From: an uncultured Pelagibacteraceae bacterium
GTDB taxonomy: Bacteria > Pseudomonadota > Alphaproteobacteria > Pelagibacterales > Pelagibacteraceae
Assembly: GCA_902612235.1 (NCBI GenBank)
Contig: CACMCJ010000003.1
Coordinates: forward strand, 1-64,000
Direction: 5' to 3'
Length of the DNA: 64,000 nt
Made by a program: the position numbers and the translations under genes. A model generated the notes under the pieces. The model was not told where the DNA came from and did no database searches. It was given only the letters and a program-made list of their open reading frames with translations. Below are positions 29,187-61,296 of this stretch, piece after piece; positions within the stretch are counted from its first letter, which is position 1; every line of letters starts with the position of its first letter.

Positions 29187-30097
29187 CTTTTTTTTTTATA
29201 ATTACCCTCAGACTGTTTTAATAAATCTTGTCCAGCAGAAATTCCTAGTTGTTCAGGAAATTTTTTATCTCCTGTTTTTTTAATTGAAAACGACTTAAGT
29301 CCATCATCTGAAAATAGCTGTGATATAATTGTAATATTATCTTTGTCTATTTTTGCATAAGCGCCCACAGCTGTATGACAATCTCCTCCAATAGTTTGTA
29401 ATAAACTTCTTTCTGTTAACGCGCAAATTTTTGTATCTTTATCATTGATTTTTTCTAAAATTTTTATGTTTTCAAGATCATTTTTTCTACATTGCACAGC
29501 TATTACTCCTTGTCCAGCTGATGGAATAATTTTTTTTTCTGAAAATATTTCTTTAATTTTGTCTTCAAGATTAAGTTTTTGGATACCAGCTAAAGCAAGT
29601 ATTACACCATCATATTCACCATTTTTAACTTTGGAGATTCTACTATCGATATTTCCTCTTATGTTTTTAAATCTTACATTTTTAAAATATGTTCTAAATT
29701 GAAGCTCCCTTCTTTTTGAACTTGACCCAATAGTAAGCCTCTCATGATCGAGCGATTTATCTTTTTGAAGAACTATTACATCTCTTGGATCATTTCTTTT
29801 AATGTAAGCACCTATCATTAAGTCATTTTCTTCAAAAGAATCCATATCCTTTAATGAATGAACAGCAATATCAATTTTTTTTTCAGATAATTGCTTTTCA
29901 ATTTCTTTACAAAAAATATTTTTACCGCCAATATCTGAAATTTTTTTATCGTGAAACATATCTCCTGATGTTTTGATAGTTTTAATTTCTATTTCTATTT
30001 TTTGATCTGATGCTAAAAAAAATAACTTTTTTACTTTTTCAGCGTAGGAAAGTGAAAGTTTGCTGCCACGTGCACCAATTATAATTTTTTTATTCAT
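29183..30097 (-). CDS. hemC: Porphobilinogen deaminase (hydroxymethylbilane synthase)
   Basis: A 304-residue enzyme that joins four porphobilinogens. Family features are GARGSKLSL (8-16), HSLKDM (80-85, with D84), SSSKRREL, and the cofactor cysteine C240 in IGGDCHTAVGAY. It is divergent from tsaD with a 38-base gap. The haem genes of the window are split: hemC/D here, hemE/H/J near the putative origin. Confidence 0.97.
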   Translation of the reverse strand: MNKKIIIGARGSKLSLSYAEKVKKLFFLASDQKIEIEIKTIKTSGDMFHDKKISDIGGKNIFCKEIEKQLSEKKIDIAVHSLKDMDSFEENDLMIGAYIKRNDPRDVIVLQKDKSLDHERLTIGSSSKRRELQFRTYFKNVRFKNIRGNIDSRISKVKNGEYDGVILALAGIQKLNLEDKIKEIFSEKKIIPSAGQGVIAVQCRKNDLENIKILEKINDKDTKICALTERSLLQTIGGDCHTAVGAYAKIDKDNITIISQLFSDDGLKSFSIKKTGDKKFPEQLGISAGQDLLKQSEGNYKKKR

Positions 30098-34409: not shown

Positions 34410-34527
34410 GTTGTATTACAAAAAACCTGTGTTTATGGTACTTTGAAGCATTTTATCATTATTTAAAAGGACCTTTTTTCTCTTTTAATTAACCTTCATA
34501 TGAGTATGATCTTTCCCATTAATTAAT

Positions 34528-34545
34528 ACTTTTTACGTAAAAAGT
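34528..34545. promoter_or_regulatory. 18-bp perfect palindrome before the symporter operon
   Basis: ACTTTTTACGTAAAAAGT reads the same on both strands. It ends 16 bases before the ATG of the small subunit and seven bases before the ribosome-binding site GGGGG. It could be an operator for a dimeric regulator or an mRNA hairpin affecting ribosome access. No other copy was noticed in the window. Confidence 0.55.
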
Positions 34546-34550
34546 TAAAA

Positions 34551-34557
34551 AAGGGGG
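34551..34557 (+). promoter_or_regulatory. Ribosome-binding site of the symporter small subunit
   Basis: AAGGGGG followed by four bases (AAAT) and ATG at 34562, the same geometry as dctP and acs. Confidence 0.7.
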
Positions 34558-34561
34558 AAAT

Positions 34562-34819
34562 ATGTCAAACAAAGACGCATATTGGGCGAAAACCAAAAAC
34601 CACATGATAGTTACATTGGTTCTTTGGGCTTTCTTCTCATTAGTCATATTCATGTTCGGTACTGAACTGAACACGATGTCTTTTCTTGGCTATCCATTAG
34701 CATATTACATGACGGCGCAAGGTTCACTTCTTGCCTTTGTAGTAATGTTATTCTGGACTGCTAACAAACAGGAAAAGATTGACGAAGAACATGGGTTCTC
34801 AGAAAGAGAGGAGGACTAA
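34562..34819 (+). CDS. Sodium/solute symporter small subunit (DUF4212)
   Basis: An 85-residue protein with two membrane helices (about 14-32 and 44-65): WAKTKNHMIVTLVLWAFFS, then LGYPLAYYMTAQGSLLAFVV. This is the DUF4212 type that always precedes a large sodium:solute symporter and is thought to be its small subunit. Its stop overlaps the large-subunit start by one base. Confidence 0.93.
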   Translation: MSNKDAYWAKTKNHMIVTLVLWAFFSLVIFMFGTELNTMSFLGYPLAYYMTAQGSLLAFVVMLFWTANKQEKIDEEHGFSEREED

Positions 34820-41369: not shown

Positions 41370-41444
41370 TGGAGCGGGCAAAGGGACTTGAACCCTCGAC
41401 CTTCTCGTTGGCAACGAGACGCTCTACCACTGAGCTATGCCCGC
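41370..41444 (-). tRNA. tRNA-Gly (GCC)
   Basis: The minus strand folds as a cloverleaf: acceptor GCGGGCA (41438-41444) with TGCCCGC (41374-41380), D arm GCTC..GAGC, anticodon arm TCTCG-TTGCCAA-CGAGA with anticodon GCC, and T arm GAGGG-TTCAAGT-CCCTT. The discriminator is T and CCA (41370-41372) is encoded. Seventy-five bases including CCA. Confidence 0.96.
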
Positions 41445-42171: not shown

Positions 42172-43446
42172 TTAGTTGGCAGACTTATTCATAGAGTCAA
42201 AAAAATCTGCATTATTTTTTGTATTCTTTAGTTTTGATATTAAAAACTCTATGCCATCCATAGTTCCCATAGGACTTATAATTCTTCTTAAAACATTCAT
42301 TTTTGATAGATCATCTTTTTCAAAAAGTAATTCCTCTCTTCTTGTTCCAGACCTAGTGATATCTAATGCAGGGTAAATTCGTTTATCTGCTACTTTTCTA
42401 TCTAGAATTAATTCTGAATTACCAGTTCCTTTAAACTCTTCAAATATAACTTCATCCATTCTGCTTCCTGTATCTATTAATGCAGTTGAAATAATTGTGA
42501 GCGATCCACCTTCTTCAACATTTCTAGCTGCCCCAAAAAATCTTTTAGGTCTTTGAAGCGCATTTGCATCTACTCCACCAGTAAGAACTTTTCCCGAACT
42601 TGGGATAACCGCATTATAAGCTCTTCCTAGTCTAGTGATTGAGTCTAATAATATAACTACATCTTTTTTATGTTCCACTAATCTCTTAGCTTTCTCTATG
42701 ACCATTTCTGCTACAGCCACGTGTCTTGAAGCTGGTTCATCAAAAGTTGAAGCAACAACTTCTCCTTTTACTGATCGCTGCATATCTGTTACTTCTTCAG
42801 GTCTTTCATCAATCAATAAAACCATTAAATAGCACTCAGGATGATTTGCTGTAATAGATTGTGCTATATTTTGGAGTATTATAGTTTTTCCTGCTCTAGG
42901 AGGAGAAACAATTAAAGATCTCTGGCCTTTTCCGATAGGGCTCACAAGATCAATTAGCCTTGCTGTGTTGTCAGGTTTTTTTTCAGTTTTGTTTAATTCT
43001 ACTTCTAATTTTATTCTTTCATTTGGGTAAAGCGGAGTTAAGTTGTCAAAAGCAATTTTATTTTTTACTTTATCAGGATTATCAAAATTGATTTTATTTA
43101 CTTTGAGTAAAGCAAAATACCTTTCGGCATCTTTGGGCCCTCTTATTTCACCTTCTACAGAGTCTCCAGTTCTTAAACCAAACTTTCTGATCTGACTTGG
43201 ACTCACATATATATCATCTGGACCAGGTAAATAATTAGACTCTATCGCCCTTAAAAAACCGAAGCCATCTTGCAAAACTTCTAAAACACCAGTTGCAGTA
43301 ATTTGTTCATTTTTTTCAGCTAGCTTTTTTAATATTGCAAATAAAATTTCTTGCTTTCTTAAAGTACTAGGGTTTTCAATACCTAATTTTTCAGCTTCAT
43401 TAATAAGCTCTGCAGGGTTTTTTTGCTTTAGTTCTTGTAAATTCAT
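42172..43446 (-). CDS. rho: Transcription termination factor Rho
   Basis: A 424-residue RNA-dependent hexameric ATPase. The N-terminal Rho-N helices (1-47) lead to an RNA-binding OB domain with DGFGFL (60-65) and a P-loop at 181-188 (SPPRAGKT). [14 protein letters not shown] and [13 protein letters not shown] follow. Length is normal. It is the last gene of the minus-strand arm that runs from the candidate origin. Confidence 0.97.
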
Positions 43447-43508
43447 GAGATTATTGACTTTAGGTAAGTATTATTAATATAAGTGTTTTTAAATAAATTT
43501 CAAGCTTA

Positions 43509-43940
43509 TTATAGTGGTTTAAAAATAACGACAAAAACTATTACAATTAACAATATAGTTGGAATTTCATTAATAATTCTAAAGTATTTTGAGGTTTTTT
43601 GATTGTTATTTTGAGCAAATAATTTCAGGTTGTTTCCAAGAAAAAAATGATAATAAGTTAATACTAGAATAGCTATAGACTTTATCTGCATCCATAATTC
43701 TGAAAAAATTGCAAAACCCAGCAAATGGATAAGCAACAAACCAAATAACCAGGATAAGATCATTGCTGGCATCATTATATAATTATACAATTTTCTCTCC
43801 ATTGTTTTAAAGGTTTCTAGCAGTTCCTCATTTTTAGCTTCAGAATGATATACAAATATTCTAGGCAGGTATAGCAGACCGGCCATCCATGATATCACCG
43901 CAACAAGATGAAGAGATTTGTATAATAAATATAGATTCAT
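43509..43940 (-). CDS. hemJ: Protoporphyrinogen oxidase HemJ
   Basis: A 143-residue membrane protein with four helices, of the UPF0093/HemJ family: LYKSLHLVAVISWMAGLLYLPRI with the conserved H11, then TMERKLYNYIMMPAMILSW with R and haem-ligand contexts. HemJ oxidises protoporphyrinogen IX before ferrochelatase. hemH lies four bases away on the same strand, which supports the role. Confidence 0.94.
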   Translation of the reverse strand: MNLYLLYKSLHLVAVISWMAGLLYLPRIFVYHSEAKNEELLETFKTMERKLYNYIMMPAMILSWLFGLLLIHLLGFAIFSELWMQIKSIAILVLTYYHFFLGNNLKLFAQNNNQKTSKYFRIINEIPTILLIVIVFVVIFKPL

Positions 43941-43944
43941 TTGC

Positions 43945-44946
43945 TTACTTTACTAAGTACCTTTCTACTAAATTTTTAAATAAATTAATGTGATCGTTAT
44001 TATCGTTAAGGCACGGGATTAAATCAAAATTTTTACCTCCATTTTTTATAAAACTTTCTCTAGCTTGAATGTTTATTTCCTCAAGAGTTTCAACACAGTC
44101 CGATGCAAAACCAGGACATAAAACTAAAATGTTCTTTATGCCTTTTTGGGGAAGTTCATCTATAGTTTTATCTGTGTATGGTTTTAACCATTCTTGTGGC
44201 CCAAACCTTGATTGAAATGTAGTCAAAATTTCATAATCTGTGTATTTTTCTTTAATTAATCTACTAGTTTTTTGACAGTAACATTGATATGGGTCTCCTT
44301 TCTTAAAATAAGACTCTGGTATTCCATGGTAAGAAGCAATAATTTTTTCTGGTTTCCAACTTATTGATTGAACTTTATTTCTAATGCTATTTATTAAAGC
44401 ATTAATGTAAAGCTCTTCGCTCTCGTAGTGAGGGATTATTTGAAGACTCGGTTGCCATCTCATACCCATTAAAGATCTGTAAACCTCATCACAAACAGAA
44501 GCAGTTGTAGCTGCTGCATACTGAGGGTATAAAGGTAAAACTATAATATTTTCGCAGCCCAATTCTTTTAACGAAGATAGTTTACTTTTTATACTTGGGT
44601 TTCCGTATCTCATAGCAAAATCTACAACAATATTTTCGTCTCCTATTAGTTTACGTAAATTATCTGATTGCGATCTTGTAAAATACAATAAAGGAGACTC
44701 GTTTGTTTTTTTGAACCATATTTTTTTATAAGCATGAGCAGTTCTGGATGGTCTAAAGGTAAGGATAAATAAGTTTAGAATTATTTGCCAAATGATTGGA
44801 TTTAATTCGATAACTCTTCTATCAGATAAAAACTCTTTTAAATATTTTCTAATATCCCACCAATTAGTTGAGTCTGGTGTTCCCAGATTTATTAAAAGGA
44901 CTCCTGTTTTACCATAGTTAACTTTAGGATGCTCATTTGTAGTCAT
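43945..44946 (-). CDS. hemH: Ferrochelatase
   Basis: A 333-residue enzyme that inserts ferrous iron into protoporphyrin IX. Family features are VLLINLGTPDS at the start, RYGNPSIKSKL, LPLYPQYAAATT, SYHGIPESYFKKGDPY and CPGFASDCVETLEEI, with the active-site His and Glu present. ATGA overlap with hemE. Confidence 0.97.
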   Translation of the reverse strand: MTTNEHPKVNYGKTGVLLINLGTPDSTNWWDIRKYLKEFLSDRRVIELNPIIWQIILNLFILTFRPSRTAHAYKKIWFKKTNESPLLYFTRSQSDNLRKLIGDENIVVDFAMRYGNPSIKSKLSSLKELGCENIIVLPLYPQYAAATTASVCDEVYRSLMGMRWQPSLQIIPHYESEELYINALINSIRNKVQSISWKPEKIIASYHGIPESYFKKGDPYQCYCQKTSRLIKEKYTDYEILTTFQSRFGPQEWLKPYTDKTIDELPQKGIKNILVLCPGFASDCVETLEEINIQARESFIKNGGKNFDLIPCLNDNNDHINLFKNLVERYLVK

Positions 44947-45944
44947 TGGCTGCTCCTTACAAATTTCACTAATTTATCTACCATATCAGGATCTGTCTCT
45001 GGAACAATACCATGTCCTAAATTAAAAATGTAAGGAACATCTTTAAAAACATTTAAATATTTTTTTGCCTCATTAAATATATTATTTTCGTTTTCTAATA
45101 ATATTTTTGGATCCATTCCCCCTTGTAAAACTACACCTCTTAAATTTGTACGAGCCCAATTTAAATCGATTTCACTATCTAAATTTAAGCCATCTGGTTT
45201 TACTATTTTATTGAATTCAAGATATGCTGATTTAATACCTTTAGGAAAACATATAACAGGTATTTTGTTATTTTTACAAAATTTAACTAATTTCTTATTT
45301 GGTAAAAAACAAAATTTTTTTAAATTCGTTTTTTTTAAAAGACCTGCCCAAGAGTCAAATATTTGTATGACATCAGCCCCTGCATTTATTTGATTTTTAA
45401 TATGCAAACATAAAAAATAATTTAGTTTTTCAAATATTAAATCTATTTCTTTTTCACTATATTCTTTAATAAAAGTATTTAAATTTTCCTTTTTGTTGCT
45501 CATATAATAAAATAATGTCCATGGAGCTCCAATAAAAGAAATAAGAGATTTTTTATCATCCAGCTTTTTCCTTGTTTTATTTATTGCTTTATAGACTGGC
45601 TCTAATTTTTTAGTAAAGCTTGATGAGTCATTTTGGAGAAACTTATTTAAATTAAATTTACTTAAAACAGGTCCATAATTTTTTGTAAAATTAACATCTT
45701 GTCCTAATGCATATGGTACAATTAAAATATCTGAAAATATAATAGCGGAGTCCAAATCAAATCGCTTGATCGGTTGTAAAGTGATTTCTGTTACCAAATC
45801 ACTATCTAGACAAAGATTTATAAAATTTTGGTTTTTTAATCTGATTTTTTTAAATTCAGGGAGATATCTTCCTGCTTGTCTCATAAACCATATAGATTTA
45901 CAAGATCTATCTTTTTTTATTAAAATTTTTTTTATACTATTCAT
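44943..45944 (-). CDS. hemE: Uroporphyrinogen decarboxylase
   Basis: A 333-residue enzyme that decarboxylates uroporphyrinogen III to coproporphyrinogen III. WFMRQAGRYLPEFKKIR (20-36) holds the substrate-binding arginines; SAIIFSDILIVPYALG and FNLGHGIVPETDP complete the family pattern. It is the first minus-strand gene left of the 268-base A+T-rich gap. In Caulobacter and Rickettsia hemE also borders the origin. Confidence 0.97.
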   Translation of the reverse strand: MNSIKKILIKKDRSCKSIWFMRQAGRYLPEFKKIRLKNQNFINLCLDSDLVTEITLQPIKRFDLDSAIIFSDILIVPYALGQDVNFTKNYGPVLSKFNLNKFLQNDSSSFTKKLEPVYKAINKTRKKLDDKKSLISFIGAPWTLFYYMSNKKENLNTFIKEYSEKEIDLIFEKLNYFLCLHIKNQINAGADVIQIFDSWAGLLKKTNLKKFCFLPNKKLVKFCKNNKIPVICFPKGIKSAYLEFNKIVKPDGLNLDSEIDLNWARTNLRGVVLQGGMDPKILLENENNIFNEAKKYLNVFKDVPYIFNLGHGIVPETDPDMVDKLVKFVRSSQ

Positions 45945-46212
45945 ATAATATAACTTTATAATATTAGGTTATGTAGTAGGTCGTGTTAGTTATCAATATA
46001 ACTATTTATACATATCTTATACAACCAGATCTTAACAATTAGCTTAATATTCGTTGAATTTTATTGATTTTAGCTGCTTTATAAACACACACAGAATAAG
46101 AATATCAACATGCAATAAAATGTTAAAATAATGTTAGTTATTGTTAACCTTTTTTTTGTAAATAGATTATTTATGTAAAAGTGTACTTTATTAATAAATT
46201 ATTAACAAAGAT
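45945..46212. other. Candidate replication origin between hemE and ppsR
   Basis: This is the largest gap in the window: 268 bases, extremely A+T-rich, with no ORF. The genes on both sides transcribe away from it. DnaA-box-like sequences are degenerate: TTATAAACA at 46079-46087 (one mismatch to TTATNCACA), TTATCAATA at 45990-45998 and ATATCAACA at 46102-46110 (two each). The nonamer GTTAGTTAT occurs twice (45985-45993, 46133-46141), and TTAA-N7-TTAA, the CtrA spacing, is at 46191-46205. The hemE / RP001-type (ppsR) border matches the origin arrangement known from Caulobacter and Rickettsia. dnaA is not in the window. Confidence 0.55.
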
Positions 46213-47034
46213 ATGAACGAAAAATACAATGTATATCTTGTGTCTGACTCTACGGGTGAAACCTTGGATAGAATTTTTTTATCATTAAAATCTCAATTCA
46301 CAAACTTTGATTATGAAAAAAAGGAGTTTGCTTTTGTGAGAACAGAACAGCAAATTGATAATATTATTAGAGAAACAAAAAAATCTAACAACTCTATAAT
46401 TCTTTACACAATAGTTGAAATTAAACTTGCTAAGTATATAGCTAATCAGAGTGAGAAAAACAAAGTTCCCTGTTTCGGTATTTTGGGTAATTTAATTTTA
46501 AATTTTTCAAAGCTTTTAAATCAAAAAGCGATACACAAACCAAGCGCACAGCATGTTTTAGATGATGAATATTATAGACGGATAGAAGCTATTCAGTTTA
46601 CAATGGCTCATGATGACGGAAAAAAACTTGATGATATAAACTCCGCCGATATTGTTTTATTGGGCGTGAGCAGAACCAGCAAAACTCCAACGTCAATATA
46701 CTTAGCTAATAGAGGATATAAAACTATAAATATTCCTCTAGTTTTGGATCAAAAAATACCTGAAACTTTATATACAGACGAAAATAAAGTTTGCGTTATT
46801 GGTTTAGTTGCAGATCCAGAAAGACTGGCTGATATAAGAAGAAATCGTGTGGCAATAATGAAAGAAAACAACATTAAAGAATACACTGATCTTAATTTTA
46901 TTAAAGATGAAGTTAATAAATCAAAAAAATTATTTAACAGATATAAGTGGCCAATCATTGATGTTAGCAGAAAATCGGTTGAAGAAACAGCAGCATCGAT
47001 ACTTAAAATTTATGAAATAAAGAAAAATCAATGA
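46213..47034 (+). CDS. ppsR: Pyruvate,phosphate dikinase regulatory protein (PpsR/DUF299)
   Basis: A 273-residue bifunctional ADP-dependent kinase/pyrophosphorylase that regulates pyruvate phosphate dikinase or PEP synthase. It begins YLVSDSTGETLDR and has GVSRTSKTPTS (151-161, P-loop-like) followed by IYLANRGYKTINIPLV. It is the homologue of the gene next to oriC in Rickettsia. It overlaps maf by four bases (ATGA). Confidence 0.94.
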   Translation: MNEKYNVYLVSDSTGETLDRIFLSLKSQFTNFDYEKKEFAFVRTEQQIDNIIRETKKSNNSIILYTIVEIKLAKYIANQSEKNKVPCFGILGNLILNFSKLLNQKAIHKPSAQHVLDDEYYRRIEAIQFTMAHDDGKKLDDINSADIVLLGVSRTSKTPTSIYLANRGYKTINIPLVLDQKIPETLYTDENKVCVIGLVADPERLADIRRNRVAIMKENNIKEYTDLNFIKDEVNKSKKLFNRYKWPIIDVSRKSVEETAASILKIYEIKKNQ

Positions 47035-47615
47035 AAATAATTTTAGCTTCAAAGAGTGGTGTAAGAAAATCAATTCTAGATAAATATAATATTAAAGCTG
47101 ATGTTATATCCTCAAATGTAGATGAAGATGAAATCAAATCATCACTTTTAATAGAAAATGCGTCTCCTTTAACGATATCTAAAAATTTGGCGGAGATAAA
47201 ATCTATTAAAATTAGTAATAAATATCCCGATAGATTAGTTTTAGGAGCTGATAGTGTCGTTTCTTTAAATGATGAGCTTATTAACAAACCAAAATCTAGA
47301 AAGGAGGCTTTAACAATTTTAAAAAAACTTAATAATTCTATACATTTTTTAATAAGCTCTGTTTGTATTTCTAAAAATGGAGCGATGATATGGAATCATT
47401 CAGATCAATCGGAGTTAAAAATGAAAAATCTTACTGACGATGAACTATTAAGTTACTTGGAGAAAATTGAGACAGAGACTCTGCTAAATTATGGCGTTTA
47501 CCAAATAGAAGCTGAAGGATTAAAACTTTTTGAATATATTAAAGGAGACAAAGACTCTATAATGGGTTTGCCTATAAAACAGATTATGAATTACATTAAA
47601 CAATTTAGAATATGA
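47031..47615 (+). CDS. maf: Maf-like nucleotide pyrophosphatase
   Basis: A 194-residue Maf/Ham1-fold protein: ILASKSGVRKSILDK at the start, LGADSVVSLNDELINKPKSRKEA, and GVYQIEAEGLKLFEYIKGD with the catalytic acidic residues. It hydrolyses non-canonical nucleoside triphosphates. ATGA overlaps on both sides fix it in the ppsR-maf-aroE-coaE-dnaQ chain. Confidence 0.95.
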   Translation: MKIILASKSGVRKSILDKYNIKADVISSNVDEDEIKSSLLIENASPLTISKNLAEIKSIKISNKYPDRLVLGADSVVSLNDELINKPKSRKEALTILKKLNNSIHFLISSVCISKNGAMIWNHSDQSELKMKNLTDDELLSYLEKIETETLLNYGVYQIEAEGLKLFEYIKGDKDSIMGLPIKQIMNYIKQFRI

Positions 47616-48433
47616 AAAAATTATTTGCCATTATTGGTAATCCTGTAGCACATTCATTGTCTCCAGTTCTTCATAATTACTGGTTTAGGAAATATAAGAT
47701 TGATGCAAATTATAAATTAATAAATTTAGATGAAGTAAATCTAAAAAAAACAGTCGACGATCTAAGAAAAAAAAAATTAAACGGTATGAATGTAACCTTA
47801 CCATATAAGCAAAAGATTATTCCTTTTGTAGATAAACTTATAAACGATGCCAAATTAACAAATTCAGTGAACACAATTTATTTAGATGAAAACGGAAATG
47901 TGGTTGGTGAAAATACAGATGTTTTTGGTTTACAAGCAGCTTATTTAAAAGAAATTTCAGATGCAAAAAATAAAAGTTCTCTAATTATTGGTGCCGGGGG
48001 AGTTTCTCCTTCAATTATATTTGCTTTACAGAAAACAAAGGTAAAAAATATTTCAATTGTAAATAGAACGTACGAGAAATCACTTTTTTTAAAAAAAAAA
48101 TTTAATTTTTTGAACATCTTAAAATGGACCTCGCTACCGGAAGAGTTAAAAAATTTTGATATAATAATAAACGCCACAAGTCTTGGGTTAAAAAATGGAG
48201 ATAATTTTGATTTTGATTTTACAGGTCTTAAAGAACAATCAATTTTTATTGATACAATTTATAATCCGATTGAAACAAAAACTATTAGTTTCTTAAAAGA
48301 AAAAAATATTAAGACCTTTAATGGTTTAAATATGTTTATTTACCAAGGACAAAAGTCCTTTTATTTATGGAATAAAATTAATCCTGAAATAGATTTGGGA
48401 TTAATTGACTTATTAAAATCAGAATTAAAATGA
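47612..48433 (+). CDS. aroE: Shikimate dehydrogenase
   Basis: A 273-residue NADPH enzyme reducing dehydroshikimate in aromatic amino acid synthesis. Motifs: IGNPVAHSLSPVLHN, GMNVTLPYKQ with the catalytic lysine, NTVYLD-like sequence, GENTDVFG, and GAGGVSPS for nucleotide binding. Length is normal. Confidence 0.96.
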   Translation: MKKLFAIIGNPVAHSLSPVLHNYWFRKYKIDANYKLINLDEVNLKKTVDDLRKKKLNGMNVTLPYKQKIIPFVDKLINDAKLTNSVNTIYLDENGNVVGENTDVFGLQAAYLKEISDAKNKSSLIIGAGGVSPSIIFALQKTKVKNISIVNRTYEKSLFLKKKFNFLNILKWTSLPEELKNFDIIINATSLGLKNGDNFDFDFTGLKEQSIFIDTIYNPIETKTISFLKEKNIKTFNGLNMFIYQGQKSFYLWNKINPEIDLGLIDLLKSELK

Positions 48434-48996
48434 TAAAAATAGGCATCACAGGCTCTCTTGCTTCTGGAAAGACTACAGCTAGCAAATTAATCGCTAAAGG
48501 TAGAGGACCTATCTTTAGTGCAGACAGTGAAGTAAAAAAATTATATAAAGATAAAAAATTTCAATCTTTAATATCAAAAAAATTTAATATTAAAAAAAAT
48601 TTAAATTTCAAAAAAGAATTAAAAAAAAAAATTCTTTCCAAAAGTATTTATATTAAAAGACTAGAAAAATTAATTCATCCTATAGTAAGAAAAAAAATGT
48701 TTAGGTTCTTTAACAAAAATAAACATAGAAAATTTTTGTTTTGTGAAATTCCCCTGTTAATAGAAAGTAGGCTAATGAAATATTTTGATAAGATAATATT
48801 CATAAAATCAAGTAAAAAAATCAGATTAAAAAGATATATTCTTAGCGGTGGAGATAAAAAATTATTTTTTCTTTTGGATAAGAAACAATTTAAAGACACA
48901 AAAAAGATGGCTATGTGTGATTATGTAGTTGTGAATAATACATCTTTAATCATTTTAAAAAAAAAACTATCTAATATAACTATATCTCATGAATGA
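48430..48996 (+). CDS. coaE: Dephospho-CoA kinase
   Basis: A 188-residue kinase for the last step of CoA synthesis. P-loop GSLASGKT (8-15), then SADSEVKKLY, IHPIVR and CEIPLLIESRL. It is very lysine-rich with long A runs (for example 48590-48640) and a little shorter than most family members. It overlaps dnaQ by eight bases. Confidence 0.95.
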   Translation: MIKIGITGSLASGKTTASKLIAKGRGPIFSADSEVKKLYKDKKFQSLISKKFNIKKNLNFKKELKKKILSKSIYIKRLEKLIHPIVRKKMFRFFNKNKHRKFLFCEIPLLIESRLMKYFDKIIFIKSSKKIRLKRYILSGGDKKLFFLLDKKQFKDTKKMAMCDYVVVNNTSLIILKKKLSNITISHE

Positions 48997-49651
48997 AATA
49001 TTTCTTGATACAGAAACAACAGGCCTCTCTTTCAAGGACGGACATAAAATAGTTGAGATAGCTTGTATTGAAACAAAAGATCTGGTCCCTACAGATAGAG
49101 TTTTTCATAGACTTATTAACCCTTTAAGAGATGTTCCTGAGGAAGCTTTTAAAGTTCATGGATTTAGCAGTGAGGTTTTAAAAAAAGAGGATACTTTTGA
49201 CAAGATTGCCGATCAATTTTTAGATTTTATAGAGGGAAAAATGTTGATTATACACAATGCAAATTTTGATTTATCTTTTTTAAATGGAGAACTCAAAAGG
49301 ATCAATAAACCTTTAATTGAAAAAAATTTAGTTATTGATTCATTAGAAGTTGCTAGAAACAAATTTATTGGAACATCTAACTCTTTGGATGCATTGTGCA
49401 AGAGATTTAATATAGACATTTCAAAAAGAGTTAAACATAATGCGTTGCTGGATTGTGAGCTTTTAAGAGAAGTTTATATTAATCTTTTGGATGTAAAAGA
49501 GCCAAAGTTTAACCTTACAAATTCAAGTCAAGATAACGTAAAATTTAATCAAAATAAAATATACAATAAAAATGTTTTAAAAATAACAAAAATAGAATTA
49601 GATGCTCATAAATCTTTTTTGAAGTCAGAAATTAAAAAAAACTTTTATTGA
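48989..49651 (+). CDS. dnaQ: DNA polymerase III epsilon subunit (proofreading exonuclease)
   Basis: A 220-residue DEDDh exonuclease: D7 and E9 in FLDTETTG, IIHNANFDLSFL, and H-N-A-LL-D in VKHNALLDCELL. The C-terminal tail (after 180) would contact the polymerase. It closes the plus-strand chain from the origin and overlaps the convergent secB end by seven bases. Confidence 0.95.
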   Translation: MNEIFLDTETTGLSFKDGHKIVEIACIETKDLVPTDRVFHRLINPLRDVPEEAFKVHGFSSEVLKKEDTFDKIADQFLDFIEGKMLIIHNANFDLSFLNGELKRINKPLIEKNLVIDSLEVARNKFIGTSNSLDALCKRFNIDISKRVKHNALLDCELLREVYINLLDVKEPKFNLTNSSQDNVKFNQNKIYNKNVLKITKIELDAHKSFLKSEIKKNFY

Positions 49652-50064
49652 TTTTTTTTTGTTTCAAACAATTTTTGAAAATCAATGTTTTTATTGATTT
49701 TAATATCCTTAAAACCTGAACTTTCAAAAATAGATATAAAAGTTTTTCTTATTTCAGGATAAATTTCTTCCGGAACTTTAATTAAAATTATTTTTTCAAT
49801 AGCTTCTTTCTCTGCTATTTTTTCTGAAAGTTCAATTATAGTTGCGTAAACTATTTTGGTATGAATTTTTTCTAAAATATCTTCCGTCGAAATAAGATTT
49901 AAAGTTGTTTCAACCTCAATAACTTTTTCTTTAATTTGATTACTTTTTATATCAATATTAATTTTATAATTTGCAATATCTTTAGACAAAAGATAAAAAG
50001 TTTTAGGATTTGGTATTTTAAATCTCAAATCTTTAATATACTTTCCTATGATTTTATAATTCAT
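49645..50064 (-). CDS. secB: Protein-export chaperone SecB
   Basis: A protein of 139 residues from ATG 50064 (MNYKIIGKYIKDLRFKIPNP); an upstream ATG at 50085 would add seven and overlap fxsA more. NPKTFYLLSKDIANYKINID and VIEVETTLNLISTED follow the SecB fold. The family aromatic/hydrophobic grooves are retained but the C-terminal half is diverged and ends with a short KK tail. SecB keeps preproteins unfolded for SecA. Confidence 0.88.
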   Translation of the reverse strand: MNYKIIGKYIKDLRFKIPNPKTFYLLSKDIANYKINIDIKSNQIKEKVIEVETTLNLISTEDILEKIHTKIVYATIIELSEKIAEKEAIEKIILIKVPEEIYPEIRKTFISIFESSGFKDIKINKNIDFQKLFETKKNQ

Positions 50065-50476
50065 TTTCTTTATTTTTGTCTTCAATTATTTCTCCATCTA
50101 AAACTTCATTTTTTTCTTTATTTGGGTTACTTTTTTTTTTAAAGAAGTTGTTAAATAAAAACTTTCTTGTTAGTGGAATTAATAATAGAAATCCAAATAC
50201 ATCGGTAACAAATCCTGGAATAATTAATAATATTGCTGCTACAGCTATTGATGCTCCAGACGCAATTTCGTAAATCGGAAGTTGATTTCGATAAATATTA
50301 ATTATCCCAGATTTAAGAGTCTTAACCCCTTCAATTTTTGCAAAGTAAATGCCCACAATTGCTGTTAAAAATATCAATGAAATTGTGTTTAAAGCCCCTA
50401 TTTTACCACCAACCTTGATCAATAGAAAAACTTCTAGTGCGGGAATGCCAATAATTGCTAGTAATACTGGGTTCAT
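50054..50476 (-). CDS. fxsA: FxsA family membrane protein
   Basis: A 140-residue protein with the FxsA start LLAIIGIPALEVFLLIKVGGKIG, then LISLIFLTAIVGIYFAK-like helices and ILLIIPGFVTDVFGFLLLIP. The C-terminal tail is charged. FxsA was named for suppressing phage F exclusion when overproduced in E. coli; its normal role is unknown. It precedes secB on the same strand, as often in Alphaproteobacteria. Confidence 0.93.
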   Translation of the reverse strand: MNPVLLAIIGIPALEVFLLIKVGGKIGALNTISLIFLTAIVGIYFAKIEGVKTLKSGIINIYRNQLPIYEIASGASIAVAAILLIIPGFVTDVFGFLLLIPLTRKFLFNNFFKKKSNPNKEKNEVLDGEIIEDKNKENEL

Positions 50477-50520
50477 TTGTCTGATACAAAATTATATTAT
50501 TAATGTATATTTATCAAACA

Positions 50521-51123
50521 ATGAGTAATAATTTTGGATACATAGACATTATTTTGTTAGGAATGATTGCTGGTTTTATAATCCTGAGATTAAGAAGCAT
50601 ATTAGGAAGGAAAACTGGGCATGAACCTAAAATATATCCAACTTTTTCTGAAAAAAATTTTGAAATACCAAATAATGAGCCGAAAGATTTAAATAAAAAT
50701 CATGAAAAACTGGAGGGTAGTGATAAAAAAGAGTTTTTGAAGGGTGCTGAAGTTGCGTATGAGACAATTCTTACGTCATTTGCAATTGGTGACACCAAGA
50801 AATTAAAAAGTCTGTTAACTTCTGATATGGCAGATAATTTTCAGCAAGCTATTAACGAACGAAATAAACAAAATATAAAATCAGAGTTTACTTTTATTGG
50901 GGTAAAGCAGTCTAGTTTAGAAAAATATGAGAAAATTCGAAACGAACTGTTTGCTTCAGTTAAATTTGTTTCAGAAGTTATTTCTGTAAAGAAAGATAAA
51001 GATGGAAAGATTATAGAGGGTAATCCAGATAAAATTAAAGAAGTGATAGACTATTGGAAATTTTCAAAAAATATCCTAAAAAAGGGTCCTAATTGGTATT
51101 TGTCCGAAATAGTTAGCAAGTGA
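50521..51123 (+). CDS. Tim44-like domain protein
   Basis: A protein of 200 residues from ATG 50521 (MSNNFGYIDIILLGMIAGFI); an in-frame start at 50503 would add six. One N-terminal membrane helix, a charged linker, and from about residue 75 the Tim44 domain (FLKGAEVAYETILTSFAIGD, LLTSDMADNFQQAIN). Bacterial Tim44-like (TimA) proteins are membrane-linked and of uncertain function. The stop overlaps the Smr gene by four bases. Confidence 0.9.
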   Translation: MSNNFGYIDIILLGMIAGFIILRLRSILGRKTGHEPKIYPTFSEKNFEIPNNEPKDLNKNHEKLEGSDKKEFLKGAEVAYETILTSFAIGDTKKLKSLLTSDMADNFQQAINERNKQNIKSEFTFIGVKQSSLEKYEKIRNELFASVKFVSEVISVKKDKDGKIIEGNPDKIKEVIDYWKFSKNILKKGPNWYLSEIVSK

Positions 51124-51539
51124 CTAAAAAAAAAGGCTTATCCAAAGAAGATATAACTACTTGGAACAACTACATTAAAAATCCGAACGATATTTCTGAT
51201 AAAGAAAAAAATTCTGAAAAAACAAATTTTAATAAATCAAGATTTATTTATGATCTCCATGGTTATACTTTAGCTGAAGCTAACCTCAGAGTTGAAGAAC
51301 TTATTTTTAATTGTATGGAAAAAAATTATAAAGAAATTCTATTAATTACTGGAAAAGGTATTCATTCAAATACTGAAAAAAATGTATTCGTATCGAAAGA
51401 TTTAAGCAAATTAAAACATTCTGTTCCAAACTATATAAATACACATAATGAACTCTCTAAGTGCGTTATTTCTATAAACGATGCAAAAAAAGAGGACGGC
51501 GGTGAGGGTGCTATAATTATTAAATTAAGAAAATTATAA
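51120..51539 (+). CDS. Smr domain protein
   Basis: A 139-residue protein starting at GTG 51120, inside the previous stop region. After a charged N-terminal linker the Smr nuclease-like domain has [29 protein letters not shown] and [13 protein letters not shown]. Stand-alone Smr proteins are common near hslUV in Alphaproteobacteria. It overlaps the convergent hslU by six bases. Confidence 0.9.
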
Positions 51540-52910
51540 AATAAATTTTGATAAATCTGTATCTTTCACTAGATTTCCCAGGTTATCATTCACAAACTTT
51601 TTATCTACAACAACTGTTTCACCAGCCTTATCAGTTGCATTAAAACTGATATCATCTAAAACTTTTTCTATAATCGTATGTAATCTTCTCGCACCAATAT
51701 TTTCAACTGAGGAATTCACCTCTGCTGATATTTTCGCCAGCATATCTATCCCGTCGTCAGTGAATTCTAGATTTACATTTTCAGTTTTTAATAATTCTTT
51801 ATATTGTTTAATCAAACTGTTATCAGGTTCCTTTAAAATCCTTTTAAAGTCATCCTCATTTAATGCACTCAATTCAACTCTTATTGGAAGTCTACCTTGT
51901 AGTTCTGGTAAGAGGTCTGAAGGTTTAGCTAGTTGAAAAGCTCCTGAGGCAATAAATAAAATATGATCTGTTTTAATAGGACCATGTTTGGTGCTTACAG
52001 TTGTACCCTCAATTAATGGTAACAAATCTCTTTGCACTCCTTCACGAGATACATCTCCACCAACTCTATCACTTCTTGCAGATACTTTATCTATCTCGTC
52101 TAGAAACACGATTCCGTTTTCTTCAGTTGCCCTCTTAGCTTCTTTAATAATCTTGTCTTCTTCGATCATCTTATCAGATTCTTGAGCCACCAAGATGTCA
52201 TGAGACTCTTTCACGGTCATCTTTTTCTTTTTCCCTTTTTTATTACCCATCGATTTTCCAAGTATATCTCCCAGATTTACCATGCCCACATTTCCTCCAG
52301 GCATTCCAGGTATTTCAAAACTTTGCATACCAGAGTTTTTATCTTGTACCTCAATTTCGATTTCATTGTCATCGAGATCTCCGCTTCTTAGTCTTTTTCT
52401 AAAACTTTCTTTAGTTGCCACACTAGCTTTACTACCCACCAAAGCATCCAATACCTTGTCTTCCGCTTTAAGTTCAGCTTTAGCTTTTACCTCTTTTCTT
52501 TTTTTTTCTCTTTCCATGGCTATAGCTATTTCAATTAAATCTCTTACAATTTGTTCCACATCACGTCCGACATAACCTACCTCTGTAAACCTTGTTGCCT
52601 CTACTTTAATGAACGGAGCTTCAGCCAACCTAGATAATCTTCTTGAAATTTCTGTTTTTCCTACACCTGTAGGTCCAATCATTAAGATATTTTTTGGTAA
52701 AACTTCGTCTCTCATTTCCTCAGAAAGCGCTTGTCTTCTCCACCTGTTTCTAAGTGCAACTGCTACAGCTTTTTTTGCTTCTTTTTGGCCGATCACATAT
52801 CTATCTAATTCTGAAACTATTTCTCTAGGCGATAAAGCACTAACTTTTGAATTTTCTTTAGCTTTATTTTTTACAACATTTAAGTTTGTAACTTTGTTTG
52901 ATTTTGCCAT
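51534..52910 (-). CDS. hslU: ATP-dependent protease ATPase subunit HslU
   Basis: A 458-residue AAA+ unfoldase from ATG 52910 ([10 protein letters not shown]); an ATG at 52988 inside hslV is too far upstream. [16 protein letters not shown], Walker A GPTGVGKT (79-86), the I domain (about 110-240), Walker B with FLDEIDK, and C-terminal [20 protein letters not shown]. The end DTDLSKFIL plugs into HslV. It begins one base after the hslV stop. Confidence 0.96.
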
Positions 52911-52911
52911 T

Positions 52912-53451
52912 TTAAATTTTCTCCACAGTGACGTTATTGTTGGTAAAAACACAAATATCAGAAGCAACTTTAATAGATTTTCTAGCAATCTCTTCAGCTT
53001 TTAAGTTTGTTTCAATCAAAACCTTTGCAGCAGCTAAAGCATAATTTCCGCCTGAACCTATTCCAATTATACCGTCTTCAGGCTCCAGCACGTCTCCGGT
53101 ACCAGAGATTATAAAGCTGTGAGATTTATCTGCGACTGCCATCAAAGCTTCTAATCTTCTCAAAAATTTGTCACTTCTCCAATCTTTGGCTAACTCAACC
53201 GCCGCTCTTTGTAAATTACCAGCATGTTTTTCAAGTTTAGCCTCCAGTCTTTCGAACAATGTCAAGGCGTCAGCGGTCGACCCTGCAAATCCTGCTATCA
53301 CGCCTCTAGAGTCAATTTTTCTTACTTTTTTAGCTTTGCTTTTTAAAACAGTATTCCCTAGACTTACCTGACCATCTCCCGCAACAACAGTTTCCCCGTT
53401 TTTTCTAAGTAATACTATCGTTGTACCATGCCATTTTTCAGCTGTATTCAT
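52912..53451 (-). CDS. hslV: ATP-dependent protease peptidase subunit HslV
   Basis: A 179-residue threonine peptidase. The mature enzyme should begin at T10 in HGTTIVLLR after removal of nine residues. [30 protein letters not shown] and [12 protein letters not shown] follow the family. It forms the proteolytic core for HslU. It is divergent from hisB across a 95-base gap. Confidence 0.97.
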
Positions 53452-53546
53452 GATGTTATATGTGGAGATTAATTTTGGATCTTCAATAGTGATTTATTGA
53501 TAAAATTAGCATTTGAATATATATCAAAGATAAATCGGCTTAGTTT

Positions 53547-54137
53547 ATGAAAAGAAAAGCGAAAATTACTAGAAAAACAAAAGAAACAAGTATTTCTGTC
53601 GCGGTTAATTTGGACGGTAAAGGAAAGTACAAGATTAAAACTGGAATAGGTTTTTTAGATCATATGCTAGAACAACTGTCTAAGCATTCTCTTATCGACC
53701 TAGAAGTTAATGCTAAAGGCGACACTCACATTGACTTACACCACACTACTGAGGATACAGGAATAGCAATCGGCGAGGCTATTAAAAAAGCTGCTGGAAA
53801 TCGAAAAGGGATCACAAGATATGCTTCAACAATGATCCCAATGGACGAAACTCTTAGTAGAGTCTCAATTGATGTTTCGAATAGACCTTACTTAATTTGG
53901 AAAGTTAATTTGCCTGTCGAGAAACTTGGTGAAATGGACTCAGAACTATTTAAAGAATGGTTTCAAGCATTTTCGCAATCTGCTGGAATTACTTTACATA
54001 TTGAAAATATTTATGGTGAAAACAGCCATCACAAGATTGAGTCTTGTTACAAGGGTTTAGCTAGATCACTTAAAGATGCTTTGGCTATTGATAAAAGAAT
54101 AAAAAACTCAGTACCTTCGACAAAAGGCTCTATTTAA
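53547..54137 (+). CDS. hisB: Imidazoleglycerol-phosphate dehydratase
   Basis: A 196-residue manganese enzyme of histidine synthesis with the paired metal motifs: [24 protein letters not shown], and [18 protein letters not shown]. It is the single-domain form, without a HolPase part. First gene of hisB-H-A-F-E. Confidence 0.97.
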
Positions 54138-54142
54138 ATTTG

Positions 54143-54769
54143 ATGAACGTCACAATTGTTGACTACCAATCGGGCAATATAAGCTCAGTTATTAACTCTT
54201 TTACAGAGGTTACTAAAGGTAAAGTACATCTAGAGGTAACTTCAGACATTAGAAAAATTAAATCTAGTGATAAGATCATTTTACCTGGTCAAGGCTCATT
54301 CAAAAGTTGCGTAAATTCCTTGAACAATATAAATGGATTAGTTGATACACTTAAAGAATTTGCAATTACAAATAAGAAGCCCCTATTAGGAATTTGTGTT
54401 GGCTTACAAATGTTTGCAGATGTTGGTTTTGAAGAGGCAGAAACAAAAGGACTAGGTTGGATCTCAGGGAAAGTCTCTAAAATTGACAATCAAAACGGTA
54501 AATTTAAACTTCCACATATTGGTTGGAATGAAATTGAAATTCAAAAAGAAAGTAGAATATATAAAGATATAAAAAATAAATCTCATATGTATTTCGTACA
54601 CAGTTACGAGTTTATTCCAAATGATAAATCAGTTATTTCAGCAACAACAGATTATTCATCAAAAATTGTCTGTTCTGTTGAGAGAGATAATTTGTTTGGA
54701 ACTCAATTTCACCCTGAGAAAAGTGATAAAGTTGGACTAAAAATAATTGAGAATTTTATAAAACTATAA
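54143..54769 (+). CDS. hisH: Imidazole glycerol phosphate synthase, glutaminase subunit HisH
   Basis: A protein of 208 residues from ATG 54143; an in-frame TTG three bases upstream is also possible. A class I amidotransferase: VDYQSGNISSV, GQGSFKSCV, nucleophile cysteine in LGICVGLQMFA, and the C-terminal FGTQFHPEKSD with the His-Glu pair. It supplies ammonia to HisF. It overlaps hisA by one base (TAATG). Confidence 0.96.
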   Translation: MNVTIVDYQSGNISSVINSFTEVTKGKVHLEVTSDIRKIKSSDKIILPGQGSFKSCVNSLNNINGLVDTLKEFAITNKKPLLGICVGLQMFADVGFEEAETKGLGWISGKVSKIDNQNGKFKLPHIGWNEIEIQKESRIYKDIKNKSHMYFVHSYEFIPNDKSVISATTDYSSKIVCSVERDNLFGTQFHPEKSDKVGLKIIENFIKL

Positions 54770-55491
54770 TGAAAATATTCCCAGCTATAGATATTAAAGA
54801 CAAAAGATGTGTGAGATTGATCAAAGGAGACTTTGCAAACAAAACCGTATATGAAATCTCACCAATTGATCAAGCTGGTAAATATAAAGATCACGGCTTT
54901 AAAAATTTACATATTGTTGATTTGGATGGTGCATTAACTGGTAAGACGGTCAATTTAGATATTATCAAAGAAATAGTAAGTAAATACGATTTAAAGATTG
55001 AAATAGGTGGTGGTGTTAGATCTCTCAATAGCATTAAGCAATATATTGAAGCAGGTGTTGAGAAGGTAATTTTAGGCAGTGGTGCAATTAAAAATAAAGA
55101 ATTTCTAAAAGAGGCTTGTGAAAAGTTTAAAAGTCAAATTGCTTTAGGATTAGATGCAAAAGATGGAAATCTTTCTGTGTCAGGCTGGAAAGAGAATTTG
55201 AATGTTAAAACAATAGACTTTCTCAAAGAAGTAAACGACTATGGAGTAAGCCGAATAATTTACACAGATATAAATAGAGATGGAATGAAGACAAGCCCTA
55301 ATTATGACGAAACTGTAAAAATCGCAGAACTATCTAATTGTCCTGTTTTGATTTCAGGAGGTGTTTCTTCAATTAACGATATTAAGAAAGCTAAAGAATT
55401 AAAGAATAAAAAAATTGAAGGTATCATTGTTGGTAAAGCAATTTATGATGGCGATATTAAGCTTGAAGATTTGGCAAAAGAAATAGATTAA
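54769..55491 (+). CDS. hisA: ProFAR isomerase
   Basis: A 240-residue TIM barrel. FPAIDIKDKRCVRLIKGDF, IGGGVRSL and ALGLDAKDGNLSVSGW are the family phosphate and catalytic sites. Its stop is one base before the small basic ORF, then hisF. Confidence 0.96.
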   Translation: MKIFPAIDIKDKRCVRLIKGDFANKTVYEISPIDQAGKYKDHGFKNLHIVDLDGALTGKTVNLDIIKEIVSKYDLKIEIGGGVRSLNSIKQYIEAGVEKVILGSGAIKNKEFLKEACEKFKSQIALGLDAKDGNLSVSGWKENLNVKTIDFLKEVNDYGVSRIIYTDINRDGMKTSPNYDETVKIAELSNCPVLISGGVSSINDIKKAKELKNKKIEGIIVGKAIYDGDIKLEDLAKEID

Positions 55492-55492
55492 A

Positions 55493-55627
55493 ATGGTTGC
55501 AAAATTATCAACGATTAGACGTAAAATAAGAAATGGGGAAAAACTTGGTTTTTCAGAAAGAGCTAGAGCAGTAAATAAAGGATTATTACCTAGCAAAGCA
55601 AAAAAGAAAAAAAATGTTAAAAAATAG
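55493..55627 (+). CDS. Small basic protein, 44 residues, between hisA and hisF
   Basis: An ORF starting one base after the hisA stop (TAAaATG) and overlapping the first 14 bases of hisF. It reads [20 protein letters not shown] at the start, then [12 protein letters not shown] and a lysine-rich end. It is predicted helical, strongly basic, and not a ribosomal protein I recognise. Exact packing between two genes supports translation, but its size and A-rich content allow a chance ORF. Confidence 0.5.
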
Positions 55628-56381
55628 AATTATACCTTGCTTAGATGTTAAAAATGGAAGAGTTGTCAAAGGAATTAACTTTGTTGAATTAAAAGATGCT
55701 GGTGATCCAGTAGAACAAGCAAAGATTTATAGTGAAGGTGGTGCAGATGAAATCTGTTTTTTGGATATAACTGCATCAAATGAAAATAGGGATACAATTA
55801 TTGATATAGTAAGAAAAACAGCTAAAGAGTGTTTTGTTCCGTTAACGGTAGGTGGAGGCGTAAGAACGATTCAAAATATTACTGATTTATTATTGGCTGG
55901 AGCAGATAAAGTTTCTATTAATACTGCTGCAGTAAAAAATATTGATTTTGTTAAAGAGGCTTCAAAAAAATTTGGAAATCAATGTATTGTAGTAGCTATA
56001 GATGCTAAAAAAGTGTCAGAAAATAAATGGGAAGTATTCACTCATGGAGGAAGGAATAAAACTGGCATTGACGCTGTAGAATTTGCAAAAAAGGTCGAGG
56101 TTAATGGAGCTGGAGAAATCCTCTTAACTTCAATGGATAAAGATGGGACTAAGTCTGGTTACGATATAGATCTGCTAAAAACAATTACAAAAAGCACCAA
56201 TATTCCTGTAATTGCATCCGGTGGAGTTGGAACCTTAGATCATTTATACGATGGTATCGTTAAAGGTGGAGCAAGTGCTGTTTTAGCTGCTTCCATATTT
56301 CATTATGGTGAATTTAAAATTAAAGATGTTAAAGAATATTTGAATTCTAAAAATGTATCTGTAAGGTTATATGATGTTTGA
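55614..56381 (+). CDS. hisF: Imidazole glycerol phosphate synthase, cyclase subunit HisF
   Basis: A 255-residue TIM barrel. [17 protein letters not shown] with the catalytic Asp, [30 protein letters not shown] and [11 protein letters not shown] match HisF. It overlaps both the small ORF (14 bases) and hisE (11 bases). Confidence 0.97.
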
Positions 56382-56646
56382 AAACTTAGAACAATTAATA
56401 AAAACAATCAGGGAGAGGAAAAATTCTTCTCCTGATAAATCTTACACGAATAAGCTTCTTAACAATAAGAACTTAAGTGTTTCAAAAGTAAAAGAAGAAA
56501 TTGGAGAATTAATTGAATCTGTGGAAAAAAATTCAAATAAAGTACACGAAGCTACTGATGTGATATATCATTTAATGGTTTATCTAGAGGTTAACAATAT
56601 AAAGATTGAAGACGTTATGACCGAACTTAAGAAAAGACAAAAATGA
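56371..56646 (+). CDS. hisE: Phosphoribosyl-ATP pyrophosphatase
   Basis: A 91-residue all-alpha MazG-like protein: [26 protein letters not shown] and [15 protein letters not shown] carry the EExxE and ExxD metal sites. It catalyses the second step of histidine synthesis. HisI is not in the window. ATGA overlap with the HIT gene. Confidence 0.93.
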
Positions 56647-56999
56647 GTTACGATAAAAACAATATATTTGCAAAAATACTTAGAGGAGAAATCCCTTGTA
56701 AAAAAGTTTATGAAAATGAGCATGTGCTAGCCTTTCATGACATTAATCCACAAAAAAAAGTCCATGTCCTGGTTATTCCTAAGGGCGCGTATACTGATTT
56801 AGATGATTTTAATAATAAGGCATCGGATAAAGAGATTGTAGAATTTAACAGAGCTGTTTCACATGTGGCTAATTTATTGGGTTCAAAAAATAAAGGTTAT
56901 AGAGCTCTAACAAATATTGGAAGTGATGGTGGACAAGAAGTTCCTCACTTACATTTTCATATTTTTGCAGGTGAAATAATAGGCAAGATGGTAAGTTAA
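56643..56999 (+). CDS. HIT family hydrolase (HinT-like)
   Basis: A 118-residue nucleotide hydrolase of the histidine triad family: NIFAKILRGEIPCKKVYENE at the start, KVHVLVIPK, and the triad H102-x-H104-x-H106 in VPHLHFHIFAG. HinT proteins act on nucleoside phosphoramidates. It overlaps the acetyltransferase start by one base. Confidence 0.95.
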   Translation: MSYDKNNIFAKILRGEIPCKKVYENEHVLAFHDINPQKKVHVLVIPKGAYTDLDDFNNKASDKEIVEFNRAVSHVANLLGSKNKGYRALTNIGSDGGQEVPHLHFHIFAGEIIGKMVS

Positions 57000-57505
57000 T
57001 GGTTTCTAGAATTAAAAGATATTTTTTGGAGATTAAAGATTTTTCAAACACGATTAATTTAAACCTCCCTGAATATTATAAGATTGTATTAGATGATAAA
57101 AATGATTTTCATTTAAATAAATTTTTTTATAAACAAATCGGTGAAGATCATTATTGGAGAGATAGGTTACTTTGGTCGGATAAAGAATGGATAAAATATG
57201 TTTCCAATAAAAATCTAGAAACACATGTTCTAAAAAAAGGAGATGATCTAGTTGGATATTATGAACAAGAACACCATCCAAGCACAAATGAAGTTGAATT
57301 AATCAATATGGGTGTTCTAAAAAAATTTAGAGGCTTAAAACTCGGCTCAACTCTTGTTAACCATGCTATTGCTAGTGCATCAAGAAAAAATCCGGAAAGA
57401 ATGTGGGTTCATACTTGTAGTTTAGATCATAAGCACGCTCTTCAAAATTATAAATCAAAAGGATTTGAGATTTTTAAAGAAGAAGAAATAGATTTTGTGG
57501 CTTAA
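56999..57505 (+). CDS. GNAT family N-acetyltransferase
   Basis: A 168-residue protein with the acetyl-CoA-binding motif in its second half: VELINMGVLKKFRGLKLGST, then LVNHAIASASRKNPERMWVH and NYKSKGFE. The substrate is unknown. It starts on the hisE-HIT transcript (TAATG) and overlaps the convergent lolA end by four bases. Confidence 0.9.
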   Translation: MVSRIKRYFLEIKDFSNTINLNLPEYYKIVLDDKNDFHLNKFFYKQIGEDHYWRDRLLWSDKEWIKYVSNKNLETHVLKKGDDLVGYYEQEHHPSTNEVELINMGVLKKFRGLKLGSTLVNHAIASASRKNPERMWVHTCSLDHKHALQNYKSKGFEIFKEEEIDFVA

Positions 57506-58071
57506 TTTGATTCAGGAATTTTAAAAGTCCCTTTTTCAAATTTATCGTTTTTTGAAACAATTCTTAATGAAAAGTTTACATCGTTTTTGTATTGATCGAT
57601 AATTCGCCAACCTTTCAAGTCTAATGTTTTTCTATCAAAAAAAACTGTTATTTCATTATCACTAAGGTAGGTGAGCTTTATAATGTAGTCAGTTAATTTT
57701 AGTTCTCCTGACCGAATGATTTCCATTAGTTTATCTTTATACAAAATATTTATGAATGGAGATTTTGAAATTGGATAATAATAGGTTTTATTATACCTTT
57801 TTTGTGTAATTGCTAATCTTTTATTGTTAATTACTAACTCTTTCTCCTTGTTGTCAAAATAGTTACATTTTAGTTTTCCAGGAAATTCTAAAAGACAATT
57901 ACCTTTTTCATTTTGTTCATTAACTAATTGATCAAAGGTAAATTCTAATGAATTTAAATTATTTAATTCGTTAATTATTTGGTCTTTTTCAATAGCATGA
58001 AGAATTGTTGATAATAAAAAAAAAACTGAGAATAGTAATTTTTTTTTAAAGTACTTCACGTTTGCCAACAT
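57502..58071 (-). CDS. lolA: Outer-membrane lipoprotein carrier LolA
   Basis: A 189-residue periplasmic protein with signal sequence (YFKKKLLFSVFFLLSTILHA). The mature part has LEFTFDQLVNEQNEKGNCLL, FPGKLKCNY, a beta-rich LYKDKLMEI region and a DLKGWRIIDQYKND stretch as in LolA. It carries lipoproteins from LolCDE to the outer membrane. The start lies inside the end of ftsK (26-base overlap), an arrangement common in Alphaproteobacteria. Confidence 0.87.
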   Translation of the reverse strand: MLANVKYFKKKLLFSVFFLLSTILHAIEKDQIINELNNLNSLEFTFDQLVNEQNEKGNCLLEFPGKLKCNYFDNKEKELVINNKRLAITQKRYNKTYYYPISKSPFINILYKDKLMEIIRSGELKLTDYIIKLTYLSDNEITVFFDRKTLDLKGWRIIDQYKNDVNFSLRIVSKNDKFEKGTFKIPESN

Positions 58072-60127: not shown

Positions 60128-60182
60128 TACGAATCGATTACGTACTTTTTACCATTTTTATGAAAGTGTTAAAAATTTTTAT

Positions 60183-61292: not shown

Positions 61293-61296
61293 TTCA

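Follow-up and report, generated by a model that had tools for sequence, protein, structure and literature searches.

The 64-kb window analysed here is the first part of a 94-kb contig from a SAR11 draft genome (965 kb, 26 contigs, 84% complete). The closest named relatives of this genome are single-cell genomes of Pelagibacteraceae, and HIMB058 falls in the same group. In this window, hemE (44943-45944, minus strand; TIGR01464, 311.8 bits, above the cut-off) and ppsR, a gene of the COG1806/DUF299 type (46213-47034, plus strand; NF003742, 308.9 bits, above the cut-off), diverge from a 268-bp intergenic region (45945-46212) that is present in one copy in the genome. As the original prediction had stated, the neighbouring genes read outward on both sides: hemE, hemH, hemJ and rho on the left, and ppsR, maf, aroE, coaE and dnaQ on the right, where the maf assignment rests on a score slightly below the cut-off of its model. 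The region is extremely A+T-rich, again as predicted: its GC content is 20.5% compared with 30.6% for the window (79.5% versus 69.4% A+T), a value as low as that of only 1.7% of 268-bp windows.

Our ORF survey, in which ORF-free stretches were defined with ORFs of at least 90 aa, also bears out the claim that no other gene-free gap in the window is as long, provided that an 85-aa ORF (34562-34819) is counted as a gene; this ORF lies in 34410-34818, the single ORF-free stretch that is longer and not at the window edge. This small membrane-like ORF runs into a 619-aa symporter-like gene and probably encodes its small partner subunit. The only RNA genes found in the window are a tRNA-Gly (41370-41444) and a match to the ffh sRNA (Rfam RF01793; 1650-1702, minus strand, 40.1 bits).

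The gap contains a series of sites resembling the canonical DnaA box TTATNCACA, in both orientations. Nearest to hemE is a reversed site, TGTTAGTTA (r1; 45984-45992, minus strand), whose TGTTA core is nearly invariant among 81 sequences of the genus. Four conserved forward sites follow on the plus strand: TTATACATA (f2; 46006-46014), with one mismatch to TTATNCACA; TTATACAAC (f3; 46017-46025; genus consensus TTATACATA), 11 bp after it; TTATAAACA (f4; 46079-46087), also with one mismatch; and ATATCAACA (f5; 46102-46110; genus consensus TTATTAACA). Beyond these lie three reversed TGTTA half-boxes (r6-r8; 46121-46150, minus strand) in conserved columns, which start at 46121, 46132 and 46142 and are thus spaced by 11 and 10 bp. 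The triple is complete in 30 of 94 genus sequences, compared with a frequency of 0.0005 in shuffles. The last site, TTATTAACA (f9; 46199-46207, plus strand), has one mismatch to TTATNCACA and starts 14 bp before the ppsR ATG.

The ppsR-proximal site is widely shared. An exact TTATNNACA is found there in 96 of 127 loci, and the distance of the site to the ATG is 14 bp in 91 of the 127. Its positions 1-4 and 7-9 are fixed at 93-99%, position 5 is variable and 91% have A at position 6, although the 9-mer was picked as the best match in the last 32 bp before ppsR, a choice that favours fixed positions. The aligned forms of this site include CTATCCACA and TTATACACA, and several loci of genus g3 (L020, L029 and L183) carry the exact box TTATTCACA at the site aligned to r1. 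These forms tie the sites to DnaA boxes.

The nonamer GTTAGTTAT, which had been reported to occur twice in the gap, is indeed present at 45985 and 46133, within a repeat of the 10-mer TGTTAGTTAT, and the pair marks two of the reversed box-like sites; a further copy lies in the window at 18310. The original prediction had also described the boxes as degenerate, with the best at 46079. The site at 46079 does have a single mismatch (TTATAAACA), but two more one-mismatch boxes had been missed, at 46006 (TTATACATA) and 46199 (TTATTAACA). The description of the boxes as very weak holds in that they look weak against TTATNCACA and none is exact, but they are conserved by position and mostly have A at position 6. 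In the gap of this genome alone, the excess of boxes over dinucleotide shuffles is marginal (p about 0.04-0.06); it becomes convincing because the boxes are conserved across relatives. Exact TTATNCACA is absent from this gap; four exact copies occur elsewhere in the window (21392, 28580, 48930 and 49248), of which the last two fall inside coaE and dnaQ, some 3 kb away.

Between the half-boxes and the ppsR-proximal site lies the part of the gap with the weakest duplex (46153-46198), which is A+T-rich throughout and poorly conserved in sequence. The nearest-neighbour stability minima of the gap start at 46165 for 40-bp and at 46153 for 60-bp windows. This stretch may function as a DNA-unwinding element.

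Alignment of the gap across SAR11 relatives, which the original prediction had proposed as a check, showed conservation and not the absence of it that would have counted against an origin. In all 108 loci where both genes could be seen, hemE and ppsR form a divergent pair spaced by 263-286 bp; 19 further loci, mostly from other genera (g3-g5), have a gap of 255-289 bp, which puts the conserved gap size at 255-289 bp across the combined set of 127 loci. In genus g2, hemE, hemH and hemJ no longer form part of the locus and rho lies directly beside the gap, which is retained together with its boxes. The best hemE match elsewhere for the g2 loci L172 and L173 is only 28-30% identical. When 81 distinct sequences of the genus were aligned, the islands of conservation coincided with r1, f2-f5, r6-r8 and f9; a global alignment of all genera cannot be relied on beyond the anchored boxes. 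A conservation test on blocks picked from the same alignment was discarded as circular, and a circular-shift test on motif-defined sites was therefore used instead. The three strongest sites of the window by motif had a mean information of 1.62 bits compared with 1.07 bits for shifted masks, and no circular shift reached this value. Exact TTATNCACA occurs 0.03 times per gap in the genus, compared with 0.02 expected by chance; in the other genera it averages 0.5-1.0 per gap in g3, g5 and g6 and is missing from g4 (2 loci).

Could the gap be an origin repressed by CtrA through a TTAA-N7-TTAA site, as in Caulobacter? The predicted match is present at 46191-46205, it is perfect, and the genus averages 0.77 such matches per gap compared with 0.21 in shuffles. 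On the other hand, the right half of the match is the TTAA inside the ppsR-proximal box, with which it overlaps, and the site is not conserved in place, occurring no more than 40 bp from ppsR in 39% of the genus loci and 6% of the others. Furthermore, no CtrA ortholog above the cut-off was found in seven SAR11 genomes (best CtrA-model score 148 bits against a cut-off of 350 bits), and the OmpR-type regulators tested were better matches to PhoB, OmpR or other models than to CtrA. With the site unconserved and CtrA not found, the match is probably incidental, and we rejected CtrA control as a conserved feature; a CtrA-repressed origin here is very unlikely. The loci L267 (G000:C3:74650-74955) and L269 have a protein with an OmpR-type DNA-binding domain and a degenerate receiver half, for which no NCBIfam family match was found at 1e-20.

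Could the gap instead be a bidirectional promoter for hemE and ppsR only, with the origin elsewhere, for example beside dnaA? Divergent genes need promoters, and the gap has seven sigma-70-like matches compared with 3.6 in shuffles. Some of its conservation could be due to the promoters of these two genes. The dnaA gene of this genome sits on a different contig, and in the 16 relatives measured dnaA is 61-85 kb from the gap. A promoter-only role, however, would not account for the uniqueness of the box cluster. In the complete relative genome G003 (1,199,990 bp), at least four TTATNNACA together with at least five near-TTATNCACA boxes fall within 280 bp at one place only, the gap. At their own counts, the gap is also the unique cluster on the 325-kb contig of G173 and on the 94-kb contig studied here, and with the relaxed consensus TTATNNACA it holds the densest boxes in all three. 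It is likewise the top box cluster in the sampled genomes G009 and G001, and is top or tied for top in 66 of 69 loci of at least 15 kb. The 600-bp flanks of dnaA in the genome studied here, in contrast, contain at most one box. Nor would a shared promoter explain why the gap persists in g2, where hemE has left the locus and the gap continues to rank first as a box cluster in the sampled genome.

The GC skew of the relatives also argues against an origin beside dnaA. In G003, where the gap lies at 67.0 kb, the cumulative GC skew has its minimum at 97.9 kb and its maximum at 675.2 kb, the latter 608 kb from the gap in a genome of 1,200 kb. With strand-corrected GC3 (third codon positions), the best origin is at 60-70 kb on a 10-kb grid; gene strand has an effect of 0.11 on GC3, compared with 0.019 for replication. 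A free two-break bootstrap of this fit gave a 16-84% range of 5-121 kb, too wide to decide on a location, and an AT3 fit was set aside as it settles on a local island. When G009 and G001 were sampled at 20 points round the circle, 17 of 18 samples to the right of the gap were G-rich and 16 of 18 to the left were C-rich, not counting those taken at the gap or at its antipode. The sign of the skew between the gap and dnaA is as expected for an origin in the gap in G009 (+335) and G001 (-366), and on net also in G003 and G173. The original prediction had named a skew minimum elsewhere, such as at dnaA, as contrary evidence, and in these relatives the sign change is not at dnaA. The shift at the region is seen in G003, G009 and G001 to within tens of kilobases, with a second sign change roughly halfway round the genome. 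On the contig studied here, the cumulative skew minimum is at 29,965, away from the gap, because gene strand dominates locally; contig skew alone, with its minima elsewhere, was therefore rejected as a locator of the origin.

Gene order provides a test that is independent of base composition, as surviving bacterial inversions tend toward symmetry about the origin. In a comparison of G173 with G003, the two diagonals centred on the gap hold 278 of 299 orthologs, compared with a median of one for other rotations; from one genus to another, genes have moved to the opposite side of the gap while keeping their distance from it. The inversion axis, calculated from inverted pairs in four comparisons with G003, lies 5.8-7.3 kb from the gap, on the side of ppsR. 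This is inside a core of about 18 kb whose gene order is uninverted relative to G003, from rho to about +15 kb (42172-61400, the right end being approximate). Both flanks of the core have swapped sides, and the core genes of this genome and of G003 lie at the same distances from the gap to within about 0.1 kb. The dnaA gene, in contrast, is at +70 to +85 kb in g1, g2, g4 and g6, but on the opposite side, at -61 to -74 kb, in g3 and g5. That dnaA changes sides while the axis stays 6-7 kb from the gap is a strong argument against an origin on the dnaA side, which we rejected on this ground and on the skew signs; a promoter-only gap with the origin elsewhere is even less likely than CtrA repression. 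The least likely alternative is an origin in a different intergenic region of the uninverted core: the axis is indeed off the gap itself and the skew resolves only tens of kilobases, but the axis need only fall within the core, and no other intergenic region on the 94-kb contig, on the G173 contig or in G003 comes near the box content of the gap for its length.

The conservation of the gap, the clustering of boxes, the GC skew in three relatives and the nearby inversion axis thus support the original prediction that this is oriC. We conclude that 45945-46212 is very probably the chromosomal replication origin, with DnaA-box-like sites, a reversed array and a candidate melting stretch rich in A+T. 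If it is active in this genome, as we infer, DnaA would bind the forward boxes TTATACATA, TTATAAACA, ATATCAACA and TTATTAACA, particular sites among them presumably acting as the strong ones, together with the reversed TGTTA array. The bound DnaA would build an oligomer and melt the A+T-rich stretch next to ppsR (46153-46198), where the helicase would be loaded and from which two forks would depart in opposite directions.

Judged from sequence, the origin of this genus appears to have an unusual box consensus, TTATNAACA, that is A-rich and weak-looking yet strongly conserved, with no exact TTATNCACA. In alignment with the E. coli chain 1J1V, domain IV of DnaA matches closely and has an intact RDHTTV recognition motif, so ordinary DnaA recognition is expected. 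The sites of the genus may either bind DnaA weakly or be preferred by SAR11 DnaA. In E. coli oriC, low-affinity DnaA arrays consist of off-consensus boxes in runs about one helical turn apart, as in the SAR11 gap, but E. coli oriC also has exact high-affinity boxes, whereas none is exact in this genus. It is possible, although we would lean slightly against it, that the origin of the genus has lost all canonical boxes and initiates by cooperative binding to weak, lineage-specific TTATNAACA sites and the one-turn TGTTA array alone, with an unchanged DnaA motif and without CtrA. The draft genome has three genes of the HU/IHF family.

The locus belongs to the known alphaproteobacterial class of hemE-COG1806 origins; what sets it apart is the unusual box consensus TTATNAACA in the genus. 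The original prediction had pointed to such origins in Caulobacter and Rickettsia, and the literature agrees: Cori of Caulobacter crescentus lies between hemE and CC0001/COG1806, and the origins of Rickettsia prowazekii and Wolbachia lie at hemE/COG1806 and hemE/COG1253, respectively (PMC1914354). The SAR11 gap shares with Cori the same two boundary genes, A+T-richness and a DnaA-box cluster, and with R. prowazekii and Wolbachia the setting of an A+T-rich origin bordered by hemE in a reduced alphaproteobacterial genome (PMC1914354). In Wolbachia, COG1253 forms the other boundary, whereas SAR11 retains COG1806 and, in g2, loses hemE instead. Of the features of the class, the boundary genes, the A+T content, the box cluster and, in relatives, the skew shift are all found here; the CtrA-binding site is represented by one match, unconserved in place. 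Such sites are present in Caulobacter but absent from some Wolbachia and Ehrlichia origins and are not strictly defining (PMC1914354). Unlike Cori, the origin of the SAR11 genus has no exact TTATNCACA, no conserved CtrA-type site, no CtrA that was found and almost no GANTC.

SAR11 bacteria count among the most abundant marine cells, and metagenome-based estimates of growth require the start point of replication to be known. The published SAR11 estimates consulted here were anchored on a coverage-derived terminus, with gaps for the clade II reference HIMB058 (PMC9589681). A sequence-level oriC common to all genera examined would provide a fixed anchor for such estimates. It would also be a natural example of an origin whose DnaA boxes are non-canonical, in a streamlined genome apparently without CtrA. 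We found no paper naming both Pelagibacter and DnaA boxes in a search that excluded most subscription papers and origin databases (DoriC), so an earlier computer prediction is possible. The CcrM site GANTC is rare in the 127 gaps (0.20/kb, compared with 1.6-2.05/kb in the intergenic regions of G173 contig 1 and G003) and is also low in the intergenic regions of the contig studied here (0.30/kb); CcrM has been reported in SAR11 (PMC3973325).
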